A stretch of 64,000 nt of DNA from Clostridia bacterium (GTDB lineage: Bacteria; Bacillota; Clostridia; RGIG7378): NCBI GenBank assembly GCA_017559445.1, contig JAFYSJ010000017.1, positions 1 to 64,000 of the forward strand, in the 5' to 3' direction. The position numbers and the translations under genes were made by a program. The notes beneath the pieces were generated by a model that was given only the letters and a program-made list of their open reading frames with translations, was not told the DNA's origin and did not search any database. This document shows, piece after piece, positions 1,141 to 55,102 of the stretch. Every line of letters begins with the position of its first letter. Position 1 is the first letter of the stretch.

Positions 1141-1212
1141 GGACCAAAGAGACAAACACCAAACACCCAACACCAAACACCAAACACTAGATGCGAAGCA
1201 TCTTTGGGTCGT
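1141..1212. repeat. CCAAACA short tandem repeat and one CTAG hairpin unit
   Basis: About 36 bases of CCAAACA-like heptads (near 1152-1188) run into CACTAG followed by the hairpin GATGC GAA GCATC (about 1190-1202). The linker and hairpin match one unit of the large array family found at 11795, 13143, 17793, 36332, 37631 and 54779. Flanking GACCAAAGA and TCTTTGGGTC make an outer inverted repeat. Confidence 0.6.
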
Positions 1213-10560: not shown

Positions 10561-11793
10561 GTGAAGATAAAACAAGTTTTAGAGAAAATATGTTGTGGTG
10601 TGTTGGCAGTGCTCCTTATGGCAGGAGCGGTGGCAATGCCAGGTGCAAAAGCAGAGGACACGTGGGATCAGTATGCGGCGGCAGATAGTGTGGATGTGAC
10701 AATTCCCGACATTTTGGATGTGCAGGCAGCAACCAATGTGAACGCACTTTCCTGCGCAGGTGCCATGTTGGTGGAGGCTGAGTCAGGCACAGTTTTGTTT
10801 GCCAAAGACCAGTACGTGGAAAGGCCCATTGCCAGCGTCACCAAGGTCATGTCCATGCTTTTAGTCATGGAGGCTATGGCTCAGGGCAAGCTGACCTACG
10901 AAACAGAGGTCAAGGTGTCAGCATACGCAGCAGGCATGGGTGGCTCCCAGGCATACATTGAGGAGGGAGAAGTCTTCACTGTACACGAAATGCTTAAGGC
11001 AGTGGCAGTACATTCGTCCAATGACGTTACTGTGGCCTTGGCCGAGGCTGTGTCCGGCAGCGAGATGGCATTTGTGGAGGAAATGAACCAAAAGGTAAAG
11101 GATCTGGGACTGGAGCACACAATTTTCGCAGATTGCACAGGCCTAAACGACAAGGATCAGCACAGTTGCGCCTACGATGTGGCCATGATCGCCCGTGAGC
11201 TGGTTACCAAATATCCAGATATTTTTAACTACACAGGTATATGGCAGGACACGTTCAGAAACGGCACTTTTGAGCTAGTAAACACCAACAAGTTGGTTAG
11301 GTACTACGCAGGTTGCGACGGCCTCAAGACTGGTTTTACCAATGCGGCAGGCTTTAACTTGGTGGCAACGGCCAACAGAAACGACATGCGAATAATATCT
11401 GTAGTTTTGGGTGGCACGGACTCCAAAACCAGGTTTGGCGAAAGCACGGCCCTGTTGGACTACGGCTTTGCAACGTACATCGTAAAGGATGGAAGAGGTG
11501 ACCTGGAGTGGCCAATTACATTGGATGTAATTAACGGAGTGAAGACTGAGTTTCAGGCGGAGCCCCAGGCAGGCAAGATCGTCATGTCCAAAAACGAGGC
11601 AAAGCAGGTGGAGTACAAGGTCACCGTGGACGAAAAAGTCAGGGCGCCCATAGCAAAGGGCCAGCAGGTAGGCAAGGTGGACGTTGTCATGGGAGATGTG
11701 GTGCTGGGTACGTTCCCGCTGGTGGCCACGGAAGATGTGGAAGGGATTACGTTTTGGTGGATGTTGATTAAACTCTTTAGGGAAATGGTTTAA
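10561..11793 (+). CDS. D-alanyl-D-alanine carboxypeptidase (S11, DacA/DacF-like)
   Basis: The 410-residue precursor probably starts at the GTG at 10561: it opens a good signal peptide (hydrophobic core to about residue 30, AKA-like cleavage) and no better start lies upstream. The S11 motifs are present: ASVTKVMS with the catalytic SxxK (about residues 89-96), HSSND (SxN, about 150), and GLKTGFTNAAGF (KTG). A C-terminal PBP5_C-like domain and an amphipathic tail follow. It trims the terminal D-Ala from peptidoglycan stem peptides. The stop TAA is followed within 2 bases by hairpin array A. Confidence 0.92.
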   Translation: MKIKQVLEKICCGVLAVLLMAGAVAMPGAKAEDTWDQYAAADSVDVTIPDILDVQAATNVNALSCAGAMLVEAESGTVLFAKDQYVERPIASVTKVMSMLLVMEAMAQGKLTYETEVKVSAYAAGMGGSQAYIEEGEVFTVHEMLKAVAVHSSNDVTVALAEAVSGSEMAFVEEMNQKVKDLGLEHTIFADCTGLNDKDQHSCAYDVAMIARELVTKYPDIFNYTGIWQDTFRNGTFELVNTNKLVRYYAGCDGLKTGFTNAAGFNLVATANRNDMRIISVVLGGTDSKTRFGESTALLDYGFATYIVKDGRGDLEWPITLDVINGVKTEFQAEPQAGKIVMSKNEAKQVEYKVTVDEKVRAPIAKGQQVGKVDVVMGDVVLGTFPLVATEDVEGITFWWMLIKLFREMV

Positions 11794-11794
11794 T

Positions 11795-11938
11795 TTAGTG
11801 AACCACGAGCTCTGCTCGTTAGTGAACCACTACGTTAGTAGCCGCGCTGTCGCGCTAGTAGTCGCACCGTTGGTGCTAGTGAACCGCCTTCGGCTAGTGG
11901 ACGCTTCGCTAGTAGCCGCACCGTTGGTGCTAGTGAGA
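11795..11938. repeat. Hairpin array A (CTAGTG-linked mini-hairpins)
   Basis: Seven short stem-loops are separated by linkers of the form TAGTGAACC, CTAGTAGCC or CTAGTGG. Stems include CGAGC-TCT-GCTCG, CGCG-CTGT-CGCG, GCACC-GTT-GGTGC (twice) and GCC-TTC-GGC. It starts 2 bases after the carboxypeptidase stop and ends 16 bases before the promoter of the antitoxin RNA. Orientation is the reverse complement of arrays B, D, E and F. Confidence 0.85.
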
Positions 11939-11982: not shown

Positions 11983-11988
11983 ATAGAA

Positions 11989-12072
11989 AAGGGAACTACC
12001 GGTAAACGGTTTGCCCAGATAGTGATTCAAACGACCGCCATACTAGTCAATTTGGGCGGTCGTTATTTTTTT
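11989..12072 (+). ncRNA. Antisense antitoxin RNA of type I TA locus 1
   Basis: A predicted RNA of about 84 nt runs from the promoter at 11954-11982 to an intrinsic terminator: stem AACGACCGCC / GGCGGTCGTT (12030-12039 with 12055-12064) plus seven T. A 5' mini-hairpin ACCG-GTAAA-CGGT follows the GGGAACT start. Its 3' end overlaps the last codons of the opposite-strand toxin gene, the classical layout for TxpA/RatA-type and holin-like toxin systems. No coding potential. Confidence 0.7.
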
Positions 12073-12185
12073 GCCTTTTGGATTGTTATGTACAATCCAA
12101 TAAGCCCTAATATTAGCCCAGTAAGAAAAATACCGGCGTTAAACAACAAATCTAATAAGCTTATTAAATCAGTATAATTAACCAT
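12063..12185 (-). CDS. Holin-like type I toxin 1 (40 aa)
   Basis: The reading frame on the minus strand gives a 40-residue peptide beginning MVNYTDLISLLDLLF, with one long hydrophobic helix (about residues 12-35) and the basic C-terminus IQKAKK. This matches the small putative holin-like toxin family (PF16935) of Firmicutes. The start follows AAAGGAGGTGAGG. The SD can pair with CCTCCCC just upstream (12194-12216), so translation is probably locked by leader structure. The antitoxin RNA on the other strand overlaps its 3' end. Expressed alone, such peptides depolarise the membrane. Confidence 0.8.
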   Translation of the reverse strand: MVNYTDLISLLDLLFNAGIFLTGLILGLIGLYITIQKAKK

Positions 12186-12285
12186 AGGGCCTCACCTCCT
12201 TTCGAGAGGGGAGGTACAAAAATGCCCTCCCAGTTGAGGGCCAACCGCCTACCGTATAATAGTAGTTCCCGTGGATTGGAGTATA
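12186..12285 (-). promoter_or_regulatory. Promoter and structured leader of toxin 1
   Basis: On the minus strand an extended -10 TGCTATACT (TATACT at 12280-12285) precedes a leader that begins CACGGGAACTACT, the same 5' sequence as the antitoxin RNA. A stem GCCCTC-aactg-GAGGGC (about 12222-12240) is followed by a second stem in which ACCTCC pairs with the SD AGGAGGT. This is the usual translational lock of type I toxin mRNAs. Confidence 0.6.
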
Positions 12286-12457: not shown

Positions 12458-12510
12458 TTTTTTCGAAGCACTTTTTATTAGAAAAATAGCGTGATATTAT
12501 GTAATTAAAA

Positions 12511-12591
12511 GGGAACTACCGGTAAACGGTTGGTCCTAGATTGCAATCAAACGACCGCACGCTAGTCAATTTGGGCGGTCGTTATTTTTTT
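12511..12591 (+). ncRNA. Solo copy of the type I antitoxin RNA (locus 1)
   Basis: GGGAACTACCGGTAAACGGT (12511-12530) is identical to the start of antitoxin RNA 1. The terminator AACGACCGC / GCGGTCGTT plus T7 (12550-12591) is nearly identical, while the middle differs. A weak -10 TAATTA lies at 12502-12507. No toxin frame survives opposite it: only YQKAKK-stop, the toxin C-terminus, after an in-frame stop. It therefore looks like a duplicated antitoxin whose toxin was lost. Confidence 0.6.
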
Positions 12592-12781
12592 GCCTTTTGG
12601 TACTAAAATCCAGCACGGATAATTGACAAACTATCGTTGTGACGATACTTAAGGTTATGCAAACTTGATATGTTACTCTTTATAGACGACAAAAATCGAC
12701 TGAAAACTATGCTAAAAAGGCCGTTTTTGGCAAATCTTGAATTTTGGAGTATAGTCTTTGCACTAAATTCAGGAGGTCAAA

Positions 12782-13150
12782 ATGAAGAGTATTTTAAGGG
12801 AAAAATCAAAGTTGTTTGCTCAGGAGATATGGGCATTATCTGAATTGCTAAAACTAAGAAAAGCAAATTATTCCATGATAGATCAGTTGCTTCGTGCGGC
12901 ATCTTCGGTAGGAGCAAACATACATGAGGCACGATATGCGTGTAGTACGAAGGATTTTATATTGAAGATGAGTATTGCTCAAAAGGAATGTAGCGAAGTT
13001 GAGTATTGGCTGGAGTTGTTTTATGACAGTGATTTCATTAGTAAGGAGCATTACAGAGATTTGCGAAGTTTAGCTTCAGAATTGCAGAGAATGTTATTTG
13101 CATCAATTCGTACTGCAAGATCAAAGCAATCCTCTCAAACCCTTCACTAG
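12782..13150 (+). CDS. Four-helix-bundle protein (23S rRNA intervening-sequence-like family)
   Basis: The 122-residue protein has the layout of the TIGR02436 four-helix-bundle family often found in 23S rRNA intervening sequences and beside mobile DNA: QLLRAASSVGANIHEA (about residues 38-53), then FILKMSIAQKECSEVEYWL. Molecular function is not known. The start ATG follows CAGGAGGTC. The stop codon TAG and the final His codon CAC are the first CACTAG linker of array B, so the array forms the gene's 3' end. Confidence 0.8.
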   Translation: MKSILREKSKLFAQEIWALSELLKLRKANYSMIDQLLRAASSVGANIHEARYACSTKDFILKMSIAQKECSEVEYWLELFYDSDFISKEHYRDLRSLASELQRMLFASIRTARSKQSSQTLH

Positions 13151-13430
13151 CGAGTAAAACGAGCGTATACTAGCGCAGCGGCCTACTAGGCGCAGCCGAT
13201 TCACTAGCGCCAACGGTGCGACCACTAGGCGCAGCCGATTCACTAGCGAGTGAAACGAGCGTATACTAGCAAGCTCTGCTTGCGGCTCACTAGCGCAGCG
13301 TATACTAGCAACGCAGTTGCGGCTCACTAGCACCAACGGTGCGACTACTAGGCGCAGCCGGTTCACTAGCGAGTGAAACGAGCGTATACTAGCGCGACAG
13401 CGCGTCCACTAGGCATAGCCGGTTCACTGA
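13143..13430. repeat. Hairpin array B (CACTAG-linked mini-hairpins)
   Basis: Fourteen CTAG-containing linkers (TATACTAG, GCCTACTAG, TTCACTAG, CTCACTAG, ACCACTAG, TCCACTAG) separate recurring stem types: GCAAGC-TCT-GCTTGC, GCAAC-GCA-GTTGC, GCACC-AAC-GGTGC, CGCG-ACAG-CGCG, GGC-GCA-GCC (three times, plus a GGC-ATA-GCC variant), and an element CGAGTGAAACGAGCG (three times, one variant) that folds with its upstream linker as TTCACT-AGCG-AGTGAA. Unit lengths run from about 15 to 24 bases. It begins inside the stop of the four-helix gene and ends 6 bases before the M42 promoter. Confidence 0.9.
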
Positions 13431-13469: not shown

Positions 13470-14537
13470 GTGATTCCCATTTCAGCACATACATTACTAG
13501 AACAGTTACTTAACCTGAGGGGCGTTACAGGAGGCGAATTCTCCGCAGCCCAGGCCGTTGCAGACATGTTCCGCCAGGTTGGTTGCGACGCATATGTTGA
13601 CGAATTCGGCAACGCAATCGCACGACTTGCAGGCACAGGTGATTCCCCATTTAAATTAGTTATAGATTCCCACTTGGACGAAATCGGCCTCATGGTTACA
13701 GGATATGAGGACGGCGGTTTCTTGCGCATTGCCAAGGTTTCTGGCGTGGATCCCAAGACTTTGCCAGCATGCATCGTTGAGGTGCAGGCTTCTGGCGACA
13801 ACTCCATCGTTCCAGGTGTTATTGGCGTTAAACCACCACACCTTTTGAGCGAAGAGGACAGAACCAAGACACCTTCTTTTGACATCCTTTTCATCGACAC
13901 AGGCTTGGCAGACGAGGAGCTCAAGGCTCGCGTTAAGATTGGCGACTACGTTACACCTATTCAGAAGATTTCTTACCTTGCTGGACAGAAGGTTGCAGCT
14001 AAGGCATTGGACGACAGAATCGGCGTATATGCCATGCTTTTGGCAGCACAGCAGCTCCAGGGCGTGGACCATGCTATCGACATGTACTTCGTAGCATCCG
14101 TTCAGGAGGAGAGACACGATATCGGACCTGTTGCAGTAGCAGCTGAGGTTTTGCCAGACATGGTTATTGCACTTGACGTAGGATTCGGCGATCAGGAGGG
14201 CACTAAGCCTGGTTCCACATCTCCTTTGGGCGAGGGCTTGGGCATCGGTTTTGGCCCATCCACTAAGAGAGAGCTTTCCTTGCTCCTTGAGAAGGTAGCC
14301 AAGGACAACGAGGTTCCAGTGCACAGAGACGTTAACGCAGGCAGAACTGGCACAGACAAGGACTCCTTTGACCGCACATTTAGAGGCATCCCATCCGCCA
14401 CAATTTCCATGCCACTTAGATACATGCACACACCAGCAGAGGTTGTGTCCCTTAAGGATATCGACAATGTGGCCAAGCTTTTGGTTAAGTTGGCAACACA
14501 GGATCCAGAAACATTGAGAGGTGCCCTATGCTATTAA
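13470..14537 (+). CDS. M42-family metallo-aminopeptidase, paralog 1
   Basis: About 352-355 residues with the M42 co-catalytic metal site: SHLDEIGLM (His and Asp), AALDDRIGVYAM-like Asp, VQEERHDIG (Glu-Glu), ALDVGFGD (Asp) and the C-terminal YMHTPAEV (His). These are dinuclear-metal aminopeptidases, often tetrahedral and cytoplasmic, that finish peptide breakdown. The start is unusual: the GTG at 13470 lies only about one base after GGAGG, whereas ATT at 13479 would have normal spacing. It is the first of three tandem paralogs and overlaps the second by 10 bases. Confidence 0.9.
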   Translation: MIPISAHTLLEQLLNLRGVTGGEFSAAQAVADMFRQVGCDAYVDEFGNAIARLAGTGDSPFKLVIDSHLDEIGLMVTGYEDGGFLRIAKVSGVDPKTLPACIVEVQASGDNSIVPGVIGVKPPHLLSEEDRTKTPSFDILFIDTGLADEELKARVKIGDYVTPIQKISYLAGQKVAAKALDDRIGVYAMLLAAQQLQGVDHAIDMYFVASVQEERHDIGPVAVAAEVLPDMVIALDVGFGDQEGTKPGSTSPLGEGLGIGFGPSTKRELSLLLEKVAKDNEVPVHRDVNAGRTGTDKDSFDRTFRGIPSATISMPLRYMHTPAEVVSLKDIDNVAKLLVKLATQDPETLRGALCY

Positions 14538-15547
14538 AGAAAATCACAGACTTAAACGGCGTAGCTGGTAACGAGGGTCCAATCAGGGACTACCTCAAGG
14601 AGCTGGTTACTCCTTTGGCAGACAAAGTATATATCGATTCCACAGGCAACTTGGTCGCATACAAGAAGGGTACTAACTCCAAGCAGCCCGAGAGACCAGT
14701 TATGGTGGCAGCACACATGGACGAGGTTGGCTTTATCGTTCGCAGCGTTACAGAGAGCGGCCACATTAAGTTCATCAACGTTGGCGGCATCGATTTCCGC
14801 ATTTTGCCAGGCACACACGTGGACATAGAGGGCAATCCCGGCGTTGTGGCACACAAGCCAATCCACTTGCAGTCCAAGGAGGAGCGCGCTAGAGCAGTTT
14901 CTGCAGATGACCTTTACATCGACTGCGGTTTCGAGACCAAGGAAGAGGCAGAGGAGGCAGGCGTAATGCCCGGCACATACATCTCCTTTGTTAACCAGTA
15001 CATGGAGTTCGGAGACGGCTGCATCGAGGCAAAGGCTTTGGATGACAGAATCGGCTGCTATGTAATGCTTAAGCTCTTGGAGAAAAAGTACAAGTCCGAC
15101 GTATACTTTGTATTCTCCACCAAGGAGGAAATCGGCGGTGACGGAGCGGGCGTTTGCGCATACGCACTTAACCCCAGAGCATGCCTCATTTTAGAGGGCA
15201 CAACATGTAGTGACGTTCCAGAGGTTTCTGCATGGAAAAAGTCCACATTGCTCGGTCACGGCCCAGCAATTACTCAGATGGATTTGCGCATGGTGGCAAC
15301 TCCAGAGCTCAATGACTTCATCATCAGGCTGGCAGAAAAAGAAAACTTGGCCTACCAGTTCAAGACAACAGTCAGCGGCGGCACAGATGGCGGCAAGATT
15401 CACACTCTCAGGAGCGGTATTGCCACAGCTGTAATTTCAGTTCCCACCAGATATATTCACTCACCTGTTAGCGTAGTTAAGAAGGTAGACATCGACGCAA
15501 CTTTGGCCTTGACTGACAGAGTGCTTGACAAGATTCACGAGTTTTAG
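14528..15547 (+). CDS. M42-family metallo-aminopeptidase, paralog 2
   Basis: 339 residues. Motifs are AAHMDEVGFIV (His, Asp), ALDDRIGCYVML (Asp), STKEEIGGDGA (Glu pair), LILEGTTCSD (Glu in the fourth metal position rather than Asp) and TRYIHSPVSVV (His). The ILEGTT variant defines a different M42 subgroup from paralogs 1 and 3, so substrate preference may differ. The ATG lies inside the end of paralog 1, implying translational coupling. Confidence 0.92.
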   Translation: MLLKKITDLNGVAGNEGPIRDYLKELVTPLADKVYIDSTGNLVAYKKGTNSKQPERPVMVAAHMDEVGFIVRSVTESGHIKFINVGGIDFRILPGTHVDIEGNPGVVAHKPIHLQSKEERARAVSADDLYIDCGFETKEEAEEAGVMPGTYISFVNQYMEFGDGCIEAKALDDRIGCYVMLKLLEKKYKSDVYFVFSTKEEIGGDGAGVCAYALNPRACLILEGTTCSDVPEVSAWKKSTLLGHGPAITQMDLRMVATPELNDFIIRLAEKENLAYQFKTTVSGGTDGGKIHTLRSGIATAVISVPTRYIHSPVSVVKKVDIDATLALTDRVLDKIHEF

Positions 15548-15561
15548 GGGAGGATACACAC

Positions 15562-16572
15562 ATGTACGATACATTTAAGTTATTGAAAAAGCTTTGTGGA
15601 GAGCAGAGCCCTGCAGGCCACGAGGAAAATATTAGAAACACAATTAAGGAATTGGTAGCCCCCATGGCAACAGAGATTGAGACCGACGTAATGGGCAACT
15701 TGTTGGTTTACATGGGCAAGGGCGACACATGCAAGATGCTCGTTGCAGCCCACATGGACGAAAACGGCATCATCGCAACATACTGCGACCCAGAGGGATT
15801 CTTTAGATTCTCTAAGATTGGCGGCATTTCTCCATACAACTTCCTCAACCAGAAGGTTATGTTCACAAACGGCGTAATGGGCGTTGTGCACAAGGATGGA
15901 GACAAGAAGTTCGACAGCCTTTCCTTTGACGATTTGTTCATCGATATCGGCGCAAAGAGCGACAAGGATGGCTACAAAAAGCTTCCAGTAGGTACAGCAG
16001 GTTCCTTCATTTCTCCATTGGAGAGAATTGGCAAGAACAAGGCTTCCGGTAAGGCTTTGGACAACAGAGCTGGCTGCGCAGTTGCTATTTTGGCAATGCA
16101 GATGCTCCATGAGGCTAAGGCAAAGCTTGACGGCAAGGTTTGCTTCGCATTCACAGTGCAGGAGGAGATCGGCTGCAGAGGTGCTAAGGTTTTGGCAGAT
16201 AGAATTAAGCCAGAAATGGCATTGGCAGTGGACGTAACTTTGGTTGGCGACTCCCCAAAGATGCCTAAGAACTCCGTTTGCTTGGGCAAGGGTCCTGCAG
16301 TTAAGATCATGGACGCATCCGTTATTGCACACCCACAGGTTCGCGGACTTTTGGAAGGCGTTGCAGCACAGCATGGCATCGAGGTACAGCATGAGATCAT
16401 CACTGCTGGTGGTACAGATGCAGGCGCTATTCAGCCAACAGCAGGTGGCGTAAAGGCTGGCGGTATTGCAATTCCTTGCAGATACATCCACACAACAACA
16501 GAGGAAGTAGCACTTTCTGACGTAGAGCAGGCAGCAACATTGCTCACAGCTGCTATCGAGGAAGTTTGCTAA
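15562..16572 (+). CDS. M42-family metallo-aminopeptidase, paralog 3
   Basis: 336 residues, with AAHMDENGIIA, KALDNRAGCAVA (DN instead of the usual DD), TVQEEIGCRGAKV, AVDVTLVGD and CRYIHTTTEE carrying the metal ligands. The ribosome site AGGGGAGGAT lies 14 bases after paralog 2. All three may assemble together or have complementary N-terminal residue preferences. Alanine racemase follows 17 bases later, so this may be one peptide-to-D-Ala transcript. Confidence 0.92.
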   Translation: MYDTFKLLKKLCGEQSPAGHEENIRNTIKELVAPMATEIETDVMGNLLVYMGKGDTCKMLVAAHMDENGIIATYCDPEGFFRFSKIGGISPYNFLNQKVMFTNGVMGVVHKDGDKKFDSLSFDDLFIDIGAKSDKDGYKKLPVGTAGSFISPLERIGKNKASGKALDNRAGCAVAILAMQMLHEAKAKLDGKVCFAFTVQEEIGCRGAKVLADRIKPEMALAVDVTLVGDSPKMPKNSVCLGKGPAVKIMDASVIAHPQVRGLLEGVAAQHGIEVQHEIITAGGTDAGAIQPTAGGVKAGGIAIPCRYIHTTTEEVALSDVEQAATLLTAAIEEVC

Positions 16573-16589
16573 TATTTTAGGAGATATAT

Positions 16590-17795
16590 ATGAGCAGAGT
16601 TGTTCCAGAATTTGGAGGATACAAGCTTAATAGAGCATGGGCAGAAATAGATTTGGATGCCATTAGGTCCAACCTTATGGAAATCCGCAAGGTTTTGCGC
16701 CCAAATACCAAGGTTTGTGCTGTGGTCAAGGCAGATGCATATGGCCATGGTGTAAAAGAGGTGGCTAATTTCTACACCCAGTGCGGCGTGGACTATTTTG
16801 CTGTGTCCATGGCAGATGAGGCCATACAGCTCCGACTCCTTGGAATAGACAAGCCTATCCTTATTTTGGGCTATACAGATCCAGTAAGGGCAGATGAACT
16901 TGTAAAGCACAAGATTACACAGTCTATTTTTGATCTGGATATGGCTAAGGCTTTGTCCGAGGCAGCAATTAGACAGAATACCAAGATAAAGGTACACATT
17001 AAGATCGACACAGGCATGAGCCGTGTGGGCTTCCGCGCAGGATACAATGCTGTAAAGGCAATTACTGAAATTAGCAAGTTGCCTGGCATAATCATCGAGG
17101 GTATGTTCACACACTTTGCCACAGCAGATGAGACAGACAGGGCTTATACAGAGTACCAGTTTGACCTTTTCGAAGGCGTGGCAGAGGAGCTGGATAGAGT
17201 GGGCATTCACATTCCAGTAAGGCACGTTGCAAATAGTGCTGCGGTTATGATGTACCCAGAGACACAGTTGGACATGGTGCGACCAGGCATTATTTTGTAC
17301 GGCATGTACCCATCCAACGAAGTGGACAAAGAAAGACTCCATTTGAGCCCAGTAATGTCCCTTAAGGCAAACATAACTCTCATTAAGACTATTTATGAGG
17401 GGGACACAGTTAGCTACGGTAGGACATTTACAGCTCCCAAGGACATGCGTATTGCCACTGTGCCCATTGGATATGCGGATGGATATATGCGTAGCTTGTC
17501 CAACAAGGGTTACATGCTGGTTAATGGACAGCGTGCAGCCGTGGTGGGCAGAGTTTGCATGGACCAGTGCATGATCGACGTGACAAATATCCAAGGGGAT
17601 ATTCGCGTTGGTGATGAGGTTGTGGTATATGGCAGCCAGAGCTATGGCGAGTACAGTGACACTATTTCCATCGAGGAAGTGGCAGAAAGCTGTGGTATGA
17701 TCAACTACGAAATGAGCTGCATCATAGGAAAGCGAATCCCACGCGTGTACAAACAAGGCGGGGAAATTGTGGATGTGGTGAATTATTTGGTTTAG
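16590..17795 (+). CDS. alr: Alanine racemase
   Basis: The 401-residue PLP enzyme converts L-alanine to D-alanine for peptidoglycan. The PLP lysine motif AVVKADAYGHG is at about residues 44-54, HIKIDTGMSRVGF follows at about 137-149, and the second catalytic tyrosine is in the C-terminal beta domain (SYGRTF, about 274). VGRVCMDQCMIDVT is also typical. It follows the M42 genes after 17 bases with a TTAGGAGA ribosome site. Its stop TAG is the first TTTAGTGAACC linker of array C. Confidence 0.97.
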   Translation: MSRVVPEFGGYKLNRAWAEIDLDAIRSNLMEIRKVLRPNTKVCAVVKADAYGHGVKEVANFYTQCGVDYFAVSMADEAIQLRLLGIDKPILILGYTDPVRADELVKHKITQSIFDLDMAKALSEAAIRQNTKIKVHIKIDTGMSRVGFRAGYNAVKAITEISKLPGIIIEGMFTHFATADETDRAYTEYQFDLFEGVAEELDRVGIHIPVRHVANSAAVMMYPETQLDMVRPGIILYGMYPSNEVDKERLHLSPVMSLKANITLIKTIYEGDTVSYGRTFTAPKDMRIATVPIGYADGYMRSLSNKGYMLVNGQRAAVVGRVCMDQCMIDVTNIQGDIRVGDEVVVYGSQSYGEYSDTISIEEVAESCGMINYEMSCIIGKRIPRVYKQGGEIVDVVNYLV

Positions 17796-17980
17796 TGAAC
17801 CACGAGCAAAGCTTGTTAGTGAGCCGCAACTGCGTTGCTAGTGAGCCGGCTGCGCCTAGTGAACCGCTGCGCTAGTGAGCCGCAACTGCGTTGCTAGTAT
17901 ACGCTCGTTTCACTCGCTAGTGAGCCGGCTGCGCCTAGTGATCCGCTGCGCTAGTAGGCTGCAACTGCGTTGCTAGTGAA
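17793..17980. repeat. Hairpin array C (CTAGTG orientation)
   Basis: Ten linkers separate hairpins: ACGAGC-AAA-GCTTGT (kept by a G-U pair), GCAAC-TGC-GTTGC (three times), GGC-TGC-GCC (twice), CGC-TGCG and CGCTCGTTTCACTCG. The first linker provides the alr stop codon. The last, CTAGTGAAGGAGG, runs directly into the SD of the ArsC/Spx-family gene. Confidence 0.88.
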
Positions 17981-36331: not shown

Positions 36332-36510
36332 TTAGTTCGTAGCGGATCACTAGCGAAGCGGGTCACTAGCAACGCAGTTGCGGCTCACTAGCAAGCTTTG
36401 CTTGCGGTTCACTAGGCGTAGCCGGATCACTAGCACCAGCGGTGCGGCTCACTAGGCGTAGCCGGATCACTAGCAACGCAGTTGCGGCTCACTAACGAGC
36501 GGTTCACTAA
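36332..36510. repeat. Hairpin array D
   Basis: Nine linkers (ATCACTAG, GTCACTAG, CTCACTAG, TTCACTAG, ending CACTAA) join GCAAC-GCA-GTTGC (twice), GCAAGC-TTT-GCTTGC, GCACC-AGC-GGTGC, GGC-GTA-GCC (twice) and GC-GAA-GC units. A larger stem GCTAA/TTAGC (36314-36330) stands just upstream. The last linker merges with AAAACGGAGG, the ribosome site of the flavin reductase gene. Confidence 0.88.
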
Positions 36511-36525
36511 AAAACGGAGGTTTTT

Positions 36526-37028: not shown

Positions 37029-37034
37029 AAAAGC

Positions 37035-37119
37035 ACGGGAACCACCGGTAGACGGTGACTCTCAGTTAGGTTTTGATGTGATCGCCGCTAATTGCTAGTC
37101 AGGGGCGGTCACTTTTTTT
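37035..37119 (+). ncRNA. Antisense antitoxin RNA of type I TA locus 2
   Basis: About 85 nt from CACGGGAACCACC to a terminator: GTGATCGCC / GGCGGTCAC (37078-37086 with 37104-37112) and seven T. The mini-hairpin ACCG-GTAGA-CGGT near the 5' end matches locus 1. The 3' end overlaps the last codons of the opposite-strand toxin gene. Confidence 0.7.
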
Positions 37120-37201
37120 GTGCCTTCATGATTCTGAAGACCAAATCAATGATTGCTATGATCAGCATAAGGAAAGCAAATAATTCTTTGTATGTAACCA
37201 T
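37109..37201 (-). CDS. Holin-like type I toxin 2 (30 aa)
   Basis: The minus-strand frame encodes a 30-residue peptide starting MVTYKELFAFLMLIIAIIDL and ending RIMKAQKK, a single membrane helix with a basic tail. This is a close match in form to the PF16935 putative holin-like toxins. The start follows GAAAGGGGGTGAT. A GAAGA/TCTTC stem lies just upstream of the SD. It is controlled by the antisense RNA from 37035. Confidence 0.85.
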   Translation of the reverse strand: MVTYKELFAFLMLIIAIIDLVFRIMKAQKK

Positions 37202-37290
37202 AGTATCACCCCCTTTCAAGAAGAATGAATCTTCTAACCAGGAGAGTCAACCGCCTACCATCTAGGGTGGTTCCCGTGAGGACTATTATA
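37202..37290 (-). promoter_or_regulatory. Promoter and leader of toxin 2
   Basis: On the minus strand a perfect TATAAT (37285-37290) precedes a leader that begins CACGGGAACCACC, repeating the 5' sequence of the antitoxin RNA in inverted orientation. No clear -35 is visible. Confidence 0.55.
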
Positions 37291-37470: not shown

Positions 37471-37614
37471 GGAAGTGGTAGCCGTTATTCAGTAATTTAC
37501 AAACTAAATAGTCATTGATATAATAAAAGCACGGGAACCACCGGTAGACGGTGACTCTCAAGTGTTAGTCAAAGTGACTTCCCACTATTTGAGTCAGGGG
37601 CGGTCACTTTTTTT
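37471..37614 (+). ncRNA. Duplicated solo antitoxin RNA (locus 2) with its promoter
   Basis: 37471-37560 repeats 36971-37060 almost exactly: the last codons of the flavin reductase gene, promoter (TTTACA 37496, TATAAT 37519-37524) and the RNA 5' half. The 3' half has a new left terminator arm AAAGTGAC pairing with GTCACTTT (37571-37578 with 37603-37610). Opposite it only MKTQKK-stop remains of the toxin. The RNA would span about 37531-37614. Confidence 0.65.
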
Positions 37615-37630
37615 GTGTCTTCATGACAGA

Positions 37631-37938
37631 GCAAGCTTTGCTTGCAGCCTACTAGCGCGATAGCGCGTCCACTAGCACCAACGGTGCGGCTCACTAGCCG
37701 AAGGCGGCTACTAGCAAGCTCCGCTTGCGGCTCACTAACGAGCTTTGCTCGTGGCTCACTAGCACCATCGGTGCGACCACTAGGCGGAGCCGGCTCACTA
37801 GCCGAAGGCGGCTCACTAGCGAATGCAATGAGCGGCTACTAGCAAGCCCCGCTTGCGGCTCACTAGGACCGAAGGTCCGGCTCACTAGCACAGCCGGCTC
37901 ACTAGCGCGAAAGCGCGTTCACTAGCACCCTCGGTGCG
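37631..37938. repeat. Hairpin array E
   Basis: Fourteen linkers. The same stems appear with many loops: GCAAGC with TTT, TCC and CCC; GCACC with AAC, ATC and CTC; GCC-GAA-GGC (twice); GGACC-GAA-GGTCC; CGCG with ATAG and AAAG-like loops; ACGAGC-TTT-GCTCGT; GGC-GGA-GCC. It begins just after the solo antitoxin terminator and ends 10 bases before the guaB promoter. Confidence 0.9.
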
Positions 37939-37948
37939 TAACATTGCC

Positions 37949-54778: not shown

Positions 54779-55102
54779 TCACTAGCCGAAGGCGGCCTAC
54801 TAGGCGCAGGCGGTTCACTAGCAACGCAGTTGCGTATACTAGCAAGCTCTGCTTGCGGCTCACTAGCGTAGCGGCCACTAGCCGAAGGCGGCCTACTAGG
54901 CGCAGCCGGCTCACTAGCGAGTGAAACGAGCGTATACTAGCAAGCTTTGCTTGCGGCTCACTAGCCGAAGGCGTTTCACTAGCAACGCAGTTGCGATTAC
55001 TAGCAAGCTCTGCTTGCGGCTCACTAGGACCGAAGGTCCGGCTCACTAGCCGAAGGCGGCCTACTAGCGCAGCGGTTCACTAGGCGCAGCCGGTTCACTA
55101 GC
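54779..55102. repeat. Hairpin array F (longest in the window)
   Basis: Seventeen linkers (TATACTAG, CTCACTAG, CCTACTAG, TTCACTAG, ATTACTAG, GCCACTAG) separate GCC-GAA-GGC (four times), GGC-GCA-GCC (two, plus one degenerate GGCGCAGGC), GCAAC-GCA-GTTGC (two), GCAAGC-TCT/TTT-GCTTGC (three), GGACC-GAA-GGTCC and CGAGTGAAACGAGCG. It is framed by the SEC-C terminator on the left and the signal peptidase terminator on the right, so probably neither gene transcribes it. Confidence 0.92.

Follow-up and report, generated by a model that had tools for sequence, protein, structure and literature searches.

A dispersed family of arrays of short DNA hairpins occupies the genome of the bacterium (class Clostridia) studied here, and it is far larger than the 64-kb stretch of DNA that was analysed as a whole (contig C24, further called the window) can show. 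In our opinion these arrays may well be non-coding, self-expanding simple-sequence DNA, in which hairpin-bearing heptamers have grown by hairpin-assisted slippage during replication, together with template switching, on the linker, even though we rate this explanation at somewhat less than an even chance. The genome is a draft of 1,684,159 bp in 40 contigs, estimated as 96% complete, in which 68 kb read N. The pattern ACTAG-N(11–24)-ACTAG occurs in it 664 times, compared with 31 occurrences of the reversed pattern, and 90 arrays with at least three ACTAG were registered (821 ACTAG in total, about 820 units, 16,172 bp). Thus, the dispersed family proposed in a preliminary description of the window is real and is not a product of chance. 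Since the assembly is a draft and several contigs end within arrays, an artefact of assembly or binning might be suspected, but this is hardly credible for arrays that lie inside contigs between normal genes, differ from each other and are present on most contigs. All six arrays of that description and its single unit were found in the window where it had placed them, the arrays comprising about 70 units:

1150–1199, plus strand: lone unit, a heptamer run AACACCA/AACACCC passing into ACTA and then into the GNA hairpin GATGCGAAGCATC
11796–11934, minus strand: array A, 8 ACTA
13143–13430 (ACTA run 13146–13411), plus strand: array B, 13 full units with 14 ACTAG, head-to-tail
17793–17977, minus strand: array C, 10 ACTA
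36332–36512 (ACTA run 36349–36509), plus strand: array D, 9 ACTA
37631–37943 (ACTA run 37651–37924), plus strand: array E, 14 ACTA
54779–55100 (ACTA run 54781–55100), plus strand: array F, 17 ACTA

According to gene calls made with a simple ORF picker, arrays overlap ORFs of at least 150 aa by only 169 of their 16,172 bp, and such ORFs make up 84% of the genome. Judging from the sequence, array A is situated between the stop of ORF 10561–11793 and the downstream GAGAGGAAAAAATG. Arrays C and D directly adjoin with their ends GAAGGAGGAAACAATG and AAAAACGGAGGTTTTTATG, respectively, array F is flanked on both sides by terminator-like hairpins, and array E contains an ACGAGC unit linked via ACTAA. 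Array B follows the 3′ end of ORF 12782–13150 and provides its stop codon (TAG), while the first TAG of array C serves as the stop codon of ORF 16590–17795, which appears to be alanine-racemase-like. In the genome as a whole a TAG stop codon is drawn from inside an array in 10 genes, including ORF 12782–13150. The product of this ORF presumably resembles the four-helix protein of 23S rRNA intervening sequences; as a candidate repeat-associated gene it was rejected, being present in a single copy in the genome. Between arrays B and C, at 13470–16572, three consecutive peptidase-like genes can be read, probably of the M42 aminopeptidase family. The window also contains a separate repeated element (11985–12275, 12505–12600, 37030–37280 and 37520–37620) built as GGGAACYACCGGTARACGGT ... 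CGGTCRYTWTTTTTTT with a terminator-like hairpin. Two of its copies also have a second part in convergent orientation, which ends in the complementary GGTGGTTCCC/GTAGTTCCC, so that the element looks like a putative paired small-RNA locus, for which Rfam gave no match.

Each unit of the arrays consists of a 7–15 nt hairpin starting exactly after ACTA and a linker of 8–9 nt that ends in the next ACTA. As a post-ACTA hairpin with a linker 783 of 828 units (95%) were parsed, and in 754 of these 783 the linker has a length of 9 nt (557 units) or 8 nt (197 units). A perfect stem of at least 3 bp is present in 62% of units and in only 7% of letter-shuffled ones, and the general form of the unit can be written as hairpin + GG + YYCACTA. 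The stem of most units opens with the G of CTAG, which pairs with the last C of the stem, while in the class ACGAGC..GCTCGT (54 units) ACTA is followed by A instead of G. Because this G belongs to the stem and is replaced in the ACGAGC class, ACTA has to be taken as the constant tetranucleotide, with CTAG as a mere by-product. The constant linker of the preliminary description is therefore borne out, but its constant motif CTAG has to be replaced by ACTA as the linker end. The small set of stem classes recurring in different order, also proposed there, amounts to approximately 13 hairpin classes, including GC, GCC, GGC, GCAAC, GCACC, GGACC, GCAAGC, ACGAGC, GAACGC and GCGC. Three classes contain a tandem G.A mismatch inside the stem (for instance GCGA-GT-GAA-AC-GAGC). 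GNA triloops (GCA, GAA or GTA) were found in 470 of the 783 parsed units (~60%), with other loops in the remaining ~40%, and in the commonest class ACTA is followed by GCGCAGC, GCGTAGC or GCGAAGC, which have 2-bp stems. As far as can be read from the letters, GNA loops and G.A pairs belong to the ACTA strand alone, while its complement has TNC loops and T.C mismatches, which are weaker.

A probable origin of the linker is suggested by tandem 7-bp repeats NNCACTA (AACACTA, ACCACTA, ATCACTA) or their complement, which are also present in this genome. CACTA is followed by another CACTA at the heptamer spacing 71 times, compared with 0–3 times when the spacing is shifted by one or two bases, and 4–5 times for scrambled motifs. 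Separate NNCACTA runs have 7-bp units, while the units of hairpin arrays are 15–24 bp long with linkers ending in the heptamer-like NNCACTA, such as TTCACTA, CTCACTA or ATCACTA. In places, heptamers pass directly into hairpin units, for example in ACCACTAACCACTAGCAACACAGTTGC and, near position 60,576 of contig C31, in ACCACTAACCACTAGCAACACAGTTGCGTATACTAGCGCAGCGG. Since the linker matches the NNCACTA heptamers of the same genome, the arrays can be read as heptamer repeats in which a mini-hairpin was added to the monomers. The unit near 1185, previously regarded as single, is present but not isolated, since its hairpin terminates the 7-bp repeat run ACACCAA..ACACTAG-ATGCGAAGCATC; the segment 1150–1199 turns out to be a heptamer-to-hairpin junction and the key to the family.

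Pairing of the stems is preserved when their sequences change. In the 5-bp classes all cells pair (100%), two pairs are changed on both sides and covariation equals 0.356 versus 0.082 in shuffled sets; in the 6-bp classes all cells again pair (100%), both-sided changes affect four pairs and the corresponding values are 0.641 and 0.228. Thus, the complementary variation of stems, on which the preliminary description had made its own proposal depend, is found in both groups. Within classes only 43 of 6,406 stem sites deviate from the consensus, nearly all of them on one side, and loops are more variable. Among single-sided changes on the array strand G.T (13) and A.C (10) show no wobble asymmetry, and hence there is no sign of selection on either RNA strand. 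At locus C13 the third hairpin is ACGAGCTTTGCTCGT, while most of seven other loci with a common block have GCAAGCTTTGCTTGC; two pairs are here altered on both sides in a homologous context, either by replacement of the whole hairpin or by a hairpin-templated change. Nearest-neighbour folding of array B gave z-scores of −1.9 and −0.2 for DNA and +0.5 and −1.35 for RNA, i.e. little excess stability, calculated with parameters that may leave the stability of GNA loops or sheared G.A pairs out of account. For this reason the claim that hairpins form in the cell relies on covariation and on what is known of the chemistry of GNA mini-hairpins rather than on the folding program.

The units of the arrays follow each other head-to-tail, with only two opposite junctions across all arrays. 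Identical hairpin classes are neighbours 30 times instead of the 97.6 times that within-array shuffles would give (z −8.6) and, outside the GC class, 5 times instead of 50.9, while repeats of a class at lag 4 are enriched (z +5.9). Identical neighbouring linkers are also avoided (z −6.1), and linker ends alternate between CACTA and TACTA (z −8.3, +6.4, −3.2 and +4.0 at lags 1, 2, 3 and 4, respectively), so that consecutive TACTA linkers are about half as frequent as expected. The excess information is 0.61 bit for a hairpin and its own linker and 0.30 bit for a linker and the next hairpin; the stronger association makes the hairpin with its 3′ linker the better definition of the unit. Avoidance of identical neighbours is a quantitative signature that any mechanism must explain.

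Orientation of the arrays is biased. Where the spacer lies between codirectional genes, the ACTA strand runs antisense to them in 35 of 48 cases (35:13, p 0.002), and in 53 of 86 arrays genome-wide it is located on the strand with negative GC skew (53:33, p 0.04). GC skew marks the leading strand well in this genome (correlation with gene strand 0.93). This moderate bias, confounded with transcription, is suggestive but not decisive for the ACTA strand tending to be the nascent lagging strand. The strictly intergenic location of the arrays, their bias in respect to genes and the maintained pairing of stems would also be expected for functional RNA or transcription elements (mRNA stabilisers, attenuators or processing sites) kept by selection between genes. 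However, the preferred orientation leaves the better-folding strand outside mRNA, that strand shows no excess of RNA folding, tolerance to G.U is not asymmetric, Rfam has no match in the window, and the orthologous spacers of a sister species do without arrays (see below), so that we consider such a function rather improbable. As far as it can be judged from folding, an RNA function was discarded, array B having no excess stability.

Hairpin-assisted slippage is the explanation that we prefer. The linker, as a short direct repeat, would allow the nascent strand to pair anew with an adjacent copy as the hairpin is extruded; a fold in the nascent strand would duplicate one or more units, and a fold in the template would delete them. 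If the ACTA strand is the nascent lagging strand, fold-back there would expand the repeat. Template switching between units would swap hairpins and linkers and produce a mosaic. Identical neighbours, which have the longest homology, would be lost fastest by slippage deletion, and this would explain the neighbour rule. A host function would not be required, and since every CTAG contains a stop codon in either strand and the arrays keep clear of genes, insertions may be tolerated. That slippage occurs between direct repeats on either side of a hairpin is known from both in vitro and in vivo work (PMC4134008), and short direct repeats flanking hairpins are exactly the anatomy of the arrays, which makes them substrates of this type for polymerase slippage (PMC4134008). 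Replication slippage, which had been suggested to act on CTAG, is supported in part, with the heptamer-like linker NNCACTA as its site. The linker of nearly always 8–9 nt, the heptamer spacing of CACTA, heptamer-hairpin junctions, the stability known for 2-bp mini-hairpins, stem covariation without wobble asymmetry, head-to-tail order, neighbour avoidance and strand bias of ACTA all argue for it, as do the array-free spacers of the sister species and a parallel in Prevotella described below. On the other hand, events involving single units would yield exactly those identical neighbours that are avoided, so that fast loss has to be assumed additionally, and the alternation of CACTA and TACTA with period 2 has no direct explanation. 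The small folding excess of array B and the moderate strand bias also count against slippage, MutS is intact, and the spread to approximately 90 sites is not explained by it.

This spread may be partly associated with a dispersed core (TAGTGTT)n-ATGTCCCTATGTTCCAATGGTCATTT, after which either inverted heptamers or a hairpin array come (for instance near 1090–1240 of C24). The core ATGTCCCTATGTTCCAATGGTCATTT has 44 matches in the genome, about three of them in coding sequence, and eight loci have in common both the core and an ordered block of first units GAACGC-GCAAC-..., which means that blocks disperse as units; in 12 of the 90 arrays the start is no more than 60 bp downstream from a core. 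A related core with other heptamers seems to be present in the sister species. The arrays could thus be passengers of a larger mobile element, i.e. the core flanked by heptamers, which is moved by an unrecognised enzyme and rearranged afterwards. We regard this as unlikely, since 78 of 90 arrays have no core nearby, and none of the enzyme families searched, namely Y1 transposase, reverse transcriptase and IS110, was found. If the arrays expand by slippage, their blocks would also have to reach new intergenic sites, sometimes with the flanking core, for which ectopic template switching or gene conversion may be offered as a guess.

The search for enzymes was made with positive controls, which worked: Y1 transposase (PF01797) had no match in this genome or in the sister one, and reverse transcriptase and IS110 had no significant match in this genome. 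The tetranucleotide adjoining a hairpin, mismatched stems in some classes, intergenic location and high copy number resemble non-autonomous REP/BIME-like elements moved by a RAYT/Y1 single-strand transposase, and an origin of this kind had been considered plausible in the preliminary description. It is now very improbable in view of the lack of PF01797 in both species (with the genome 96% complete and 68 kb masked), head-to-tail strings of hairpins only 7–15 nt long, and a tag that is neither GTAG nor CGTC. Among repair genes, loss of MutS as the cause was rejected, the gene being intact. SbcD, a subunit of the DNA hairpin nuclease, was not found in this genome, but its absence is not diagnostic, because the array-free sister has at best a sub-cut-off match of 18.8 bits and only 67 of 147 sampled members of the class exceed the cut-off. 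Loss of SbcCD was thus also dismissed as the cause, SbcD being below the cut-off in the sister and in over half of the class.

The sister species was represented by one genome of the same genus (median protein identity 69% over the stretches compared), which has 2 matches to a loose array pattern; its CTAG density is 0.47 per kb versus 2.05 per kb here. The other relatives compared belong to the same class only, and the Lachnospiraceae label of the preliminary description did not find confirmation. For four arrays with both flanking genes syntenic, no arrays were found in the orthologous spacers of the sister stretches examined: the counterpart of a 320-bp spacer with ten ACTAG is ~65 bp long and has no array, and that of a spacer with sixteen ACTAG contains (C/T)ACCTCT heptamers beside the hairpin AGAGGTGTTTCACCTCT. 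It follows that the arrays are young and private, and that in the sister a different heptamer repeat can occupy such sites. GCGNAGC units, with 188 matches here, have 0–1 in each of 390 other genomes of the class. An uncultured Prevotella and another Bacteroidales genome have runs of TTCACTA heptamers with mini-hairpins in between that are placed exactly after ACTA (GCGAAGC, GCGTAGC, GGGCGAAGCCC, GGACGAAGTCC). Behind these hairpins there is commonly GTTTCACTA, a 9-nt linker built like those of the present arrays; this motif is absent from 150 further genomes sampled in the family of that Prevotella. We read this as an origin of the heptamer + hairpin design in at least two phyla, while common descent of the Bacteroidales and present arrays by transfer is possible. 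Tentatively, and with considerable doubt, one can assume a transposase-free self-propagating DNA of heptamer linker and mini-hairpin that arises repeatedly in unrelated phyla, the neighbour rule (identical neighbours avoided, linkers of two types in alternation) recording here the enzymology of copying. In the unrelated bacterium Gpa_5 (C42:9227–9319) a four-unit array of CTTCACTAG with longer hairpins (GGTAGGGCCTACC and variants) was observed. Two unit patterns gave 0 matches in viral contigs, and blastn against phages and plasmids gave none, and spread via viruses or plasmids was therefore rejected. Searches of genomes and viruses with a broad TCACTAG triple pattern returned, among the matches listed, mostly heptamer repeats or chance. 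Rfam at the gathering score had 0 matches in the window, and a described family of heptamer + mini-hairpin arrays was not found in the open-access literature, in agreement with the earlier statement that no known repeat family matches.

Two puzzling kinds of bacterial repeats, heptamer tandem repeats and short palindromes, are joined here in one structure, whose origin thereby becomes testable. The arrays may be considered as a natural record of those DNA hairpins that slip and copy in a living cell, including GCGNAGC mini-hairpins and stems with tandem G.A pairs. They are not CRISPR, as had already been concluded, since CRISPR combines identical repeats of at least 20 bp with unique spacers of constant length, whereas the constant part is here 4–9 bp and the “spacers” are ~13 recurring hairpins of 7–15 nt. 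The view that they are not a tandem satellite is likewise upheld. As regards integron attC arrays, whose hairpins are recombined by IntI, no cassettes lie between the units of the present arrays. Cyanobacterial STRRs are heptanucleotide tandem repeats, and TAACTGA heptanucleotide repeats are described in Beggiatoaceae (PMC4679880). With heptanucleotide repeats the arrays have in common the heptamer backbone, intergenic location, scattered species-private distribution and slippage as the proposed origin, but most monomers bear here a hairpin of variable sequence and length, forming a mosaic of ~13 classes. REP/BIME are GTAG- and CGTC-tagged palindromes with RAYTs, in which inverted dimers are favoured and head-to-tail pairs are rare (PMC3733652). 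Like them, the arrays consist of short intergenic palindromes in high copy with a tetranucleotide by the hairpin and stem sub-families with compensated changes; unlike them, they have ACTA instead of GTAG/CGTC, hairpins of 7–15 nt, mixed classes in head-to-tail order and no RAYT gene. “Extraordinarily stable” DNA mini-hairpins include GCGAAGC, and a 2-bp example melts at 76.5 °C (PMC10527192); their sequences are like those of the commonest array class, but they are known as a chemical property and not as a repeat family. Finally, the short palindromic repeats of Volvox organelle DNA average 50 nt, are nested in each other, were judged selfish and have no known enzyme (PMC2670323). They resemble the arrays in being intergenic hairpins with 3–5 nt loops and several related classes, which is a likeness in kind and not a claim of homology; these repeats are longer and nested, and the description considered here reports no constant heptamer linker such as that which joins the units of the present arrays (PMC2670323).
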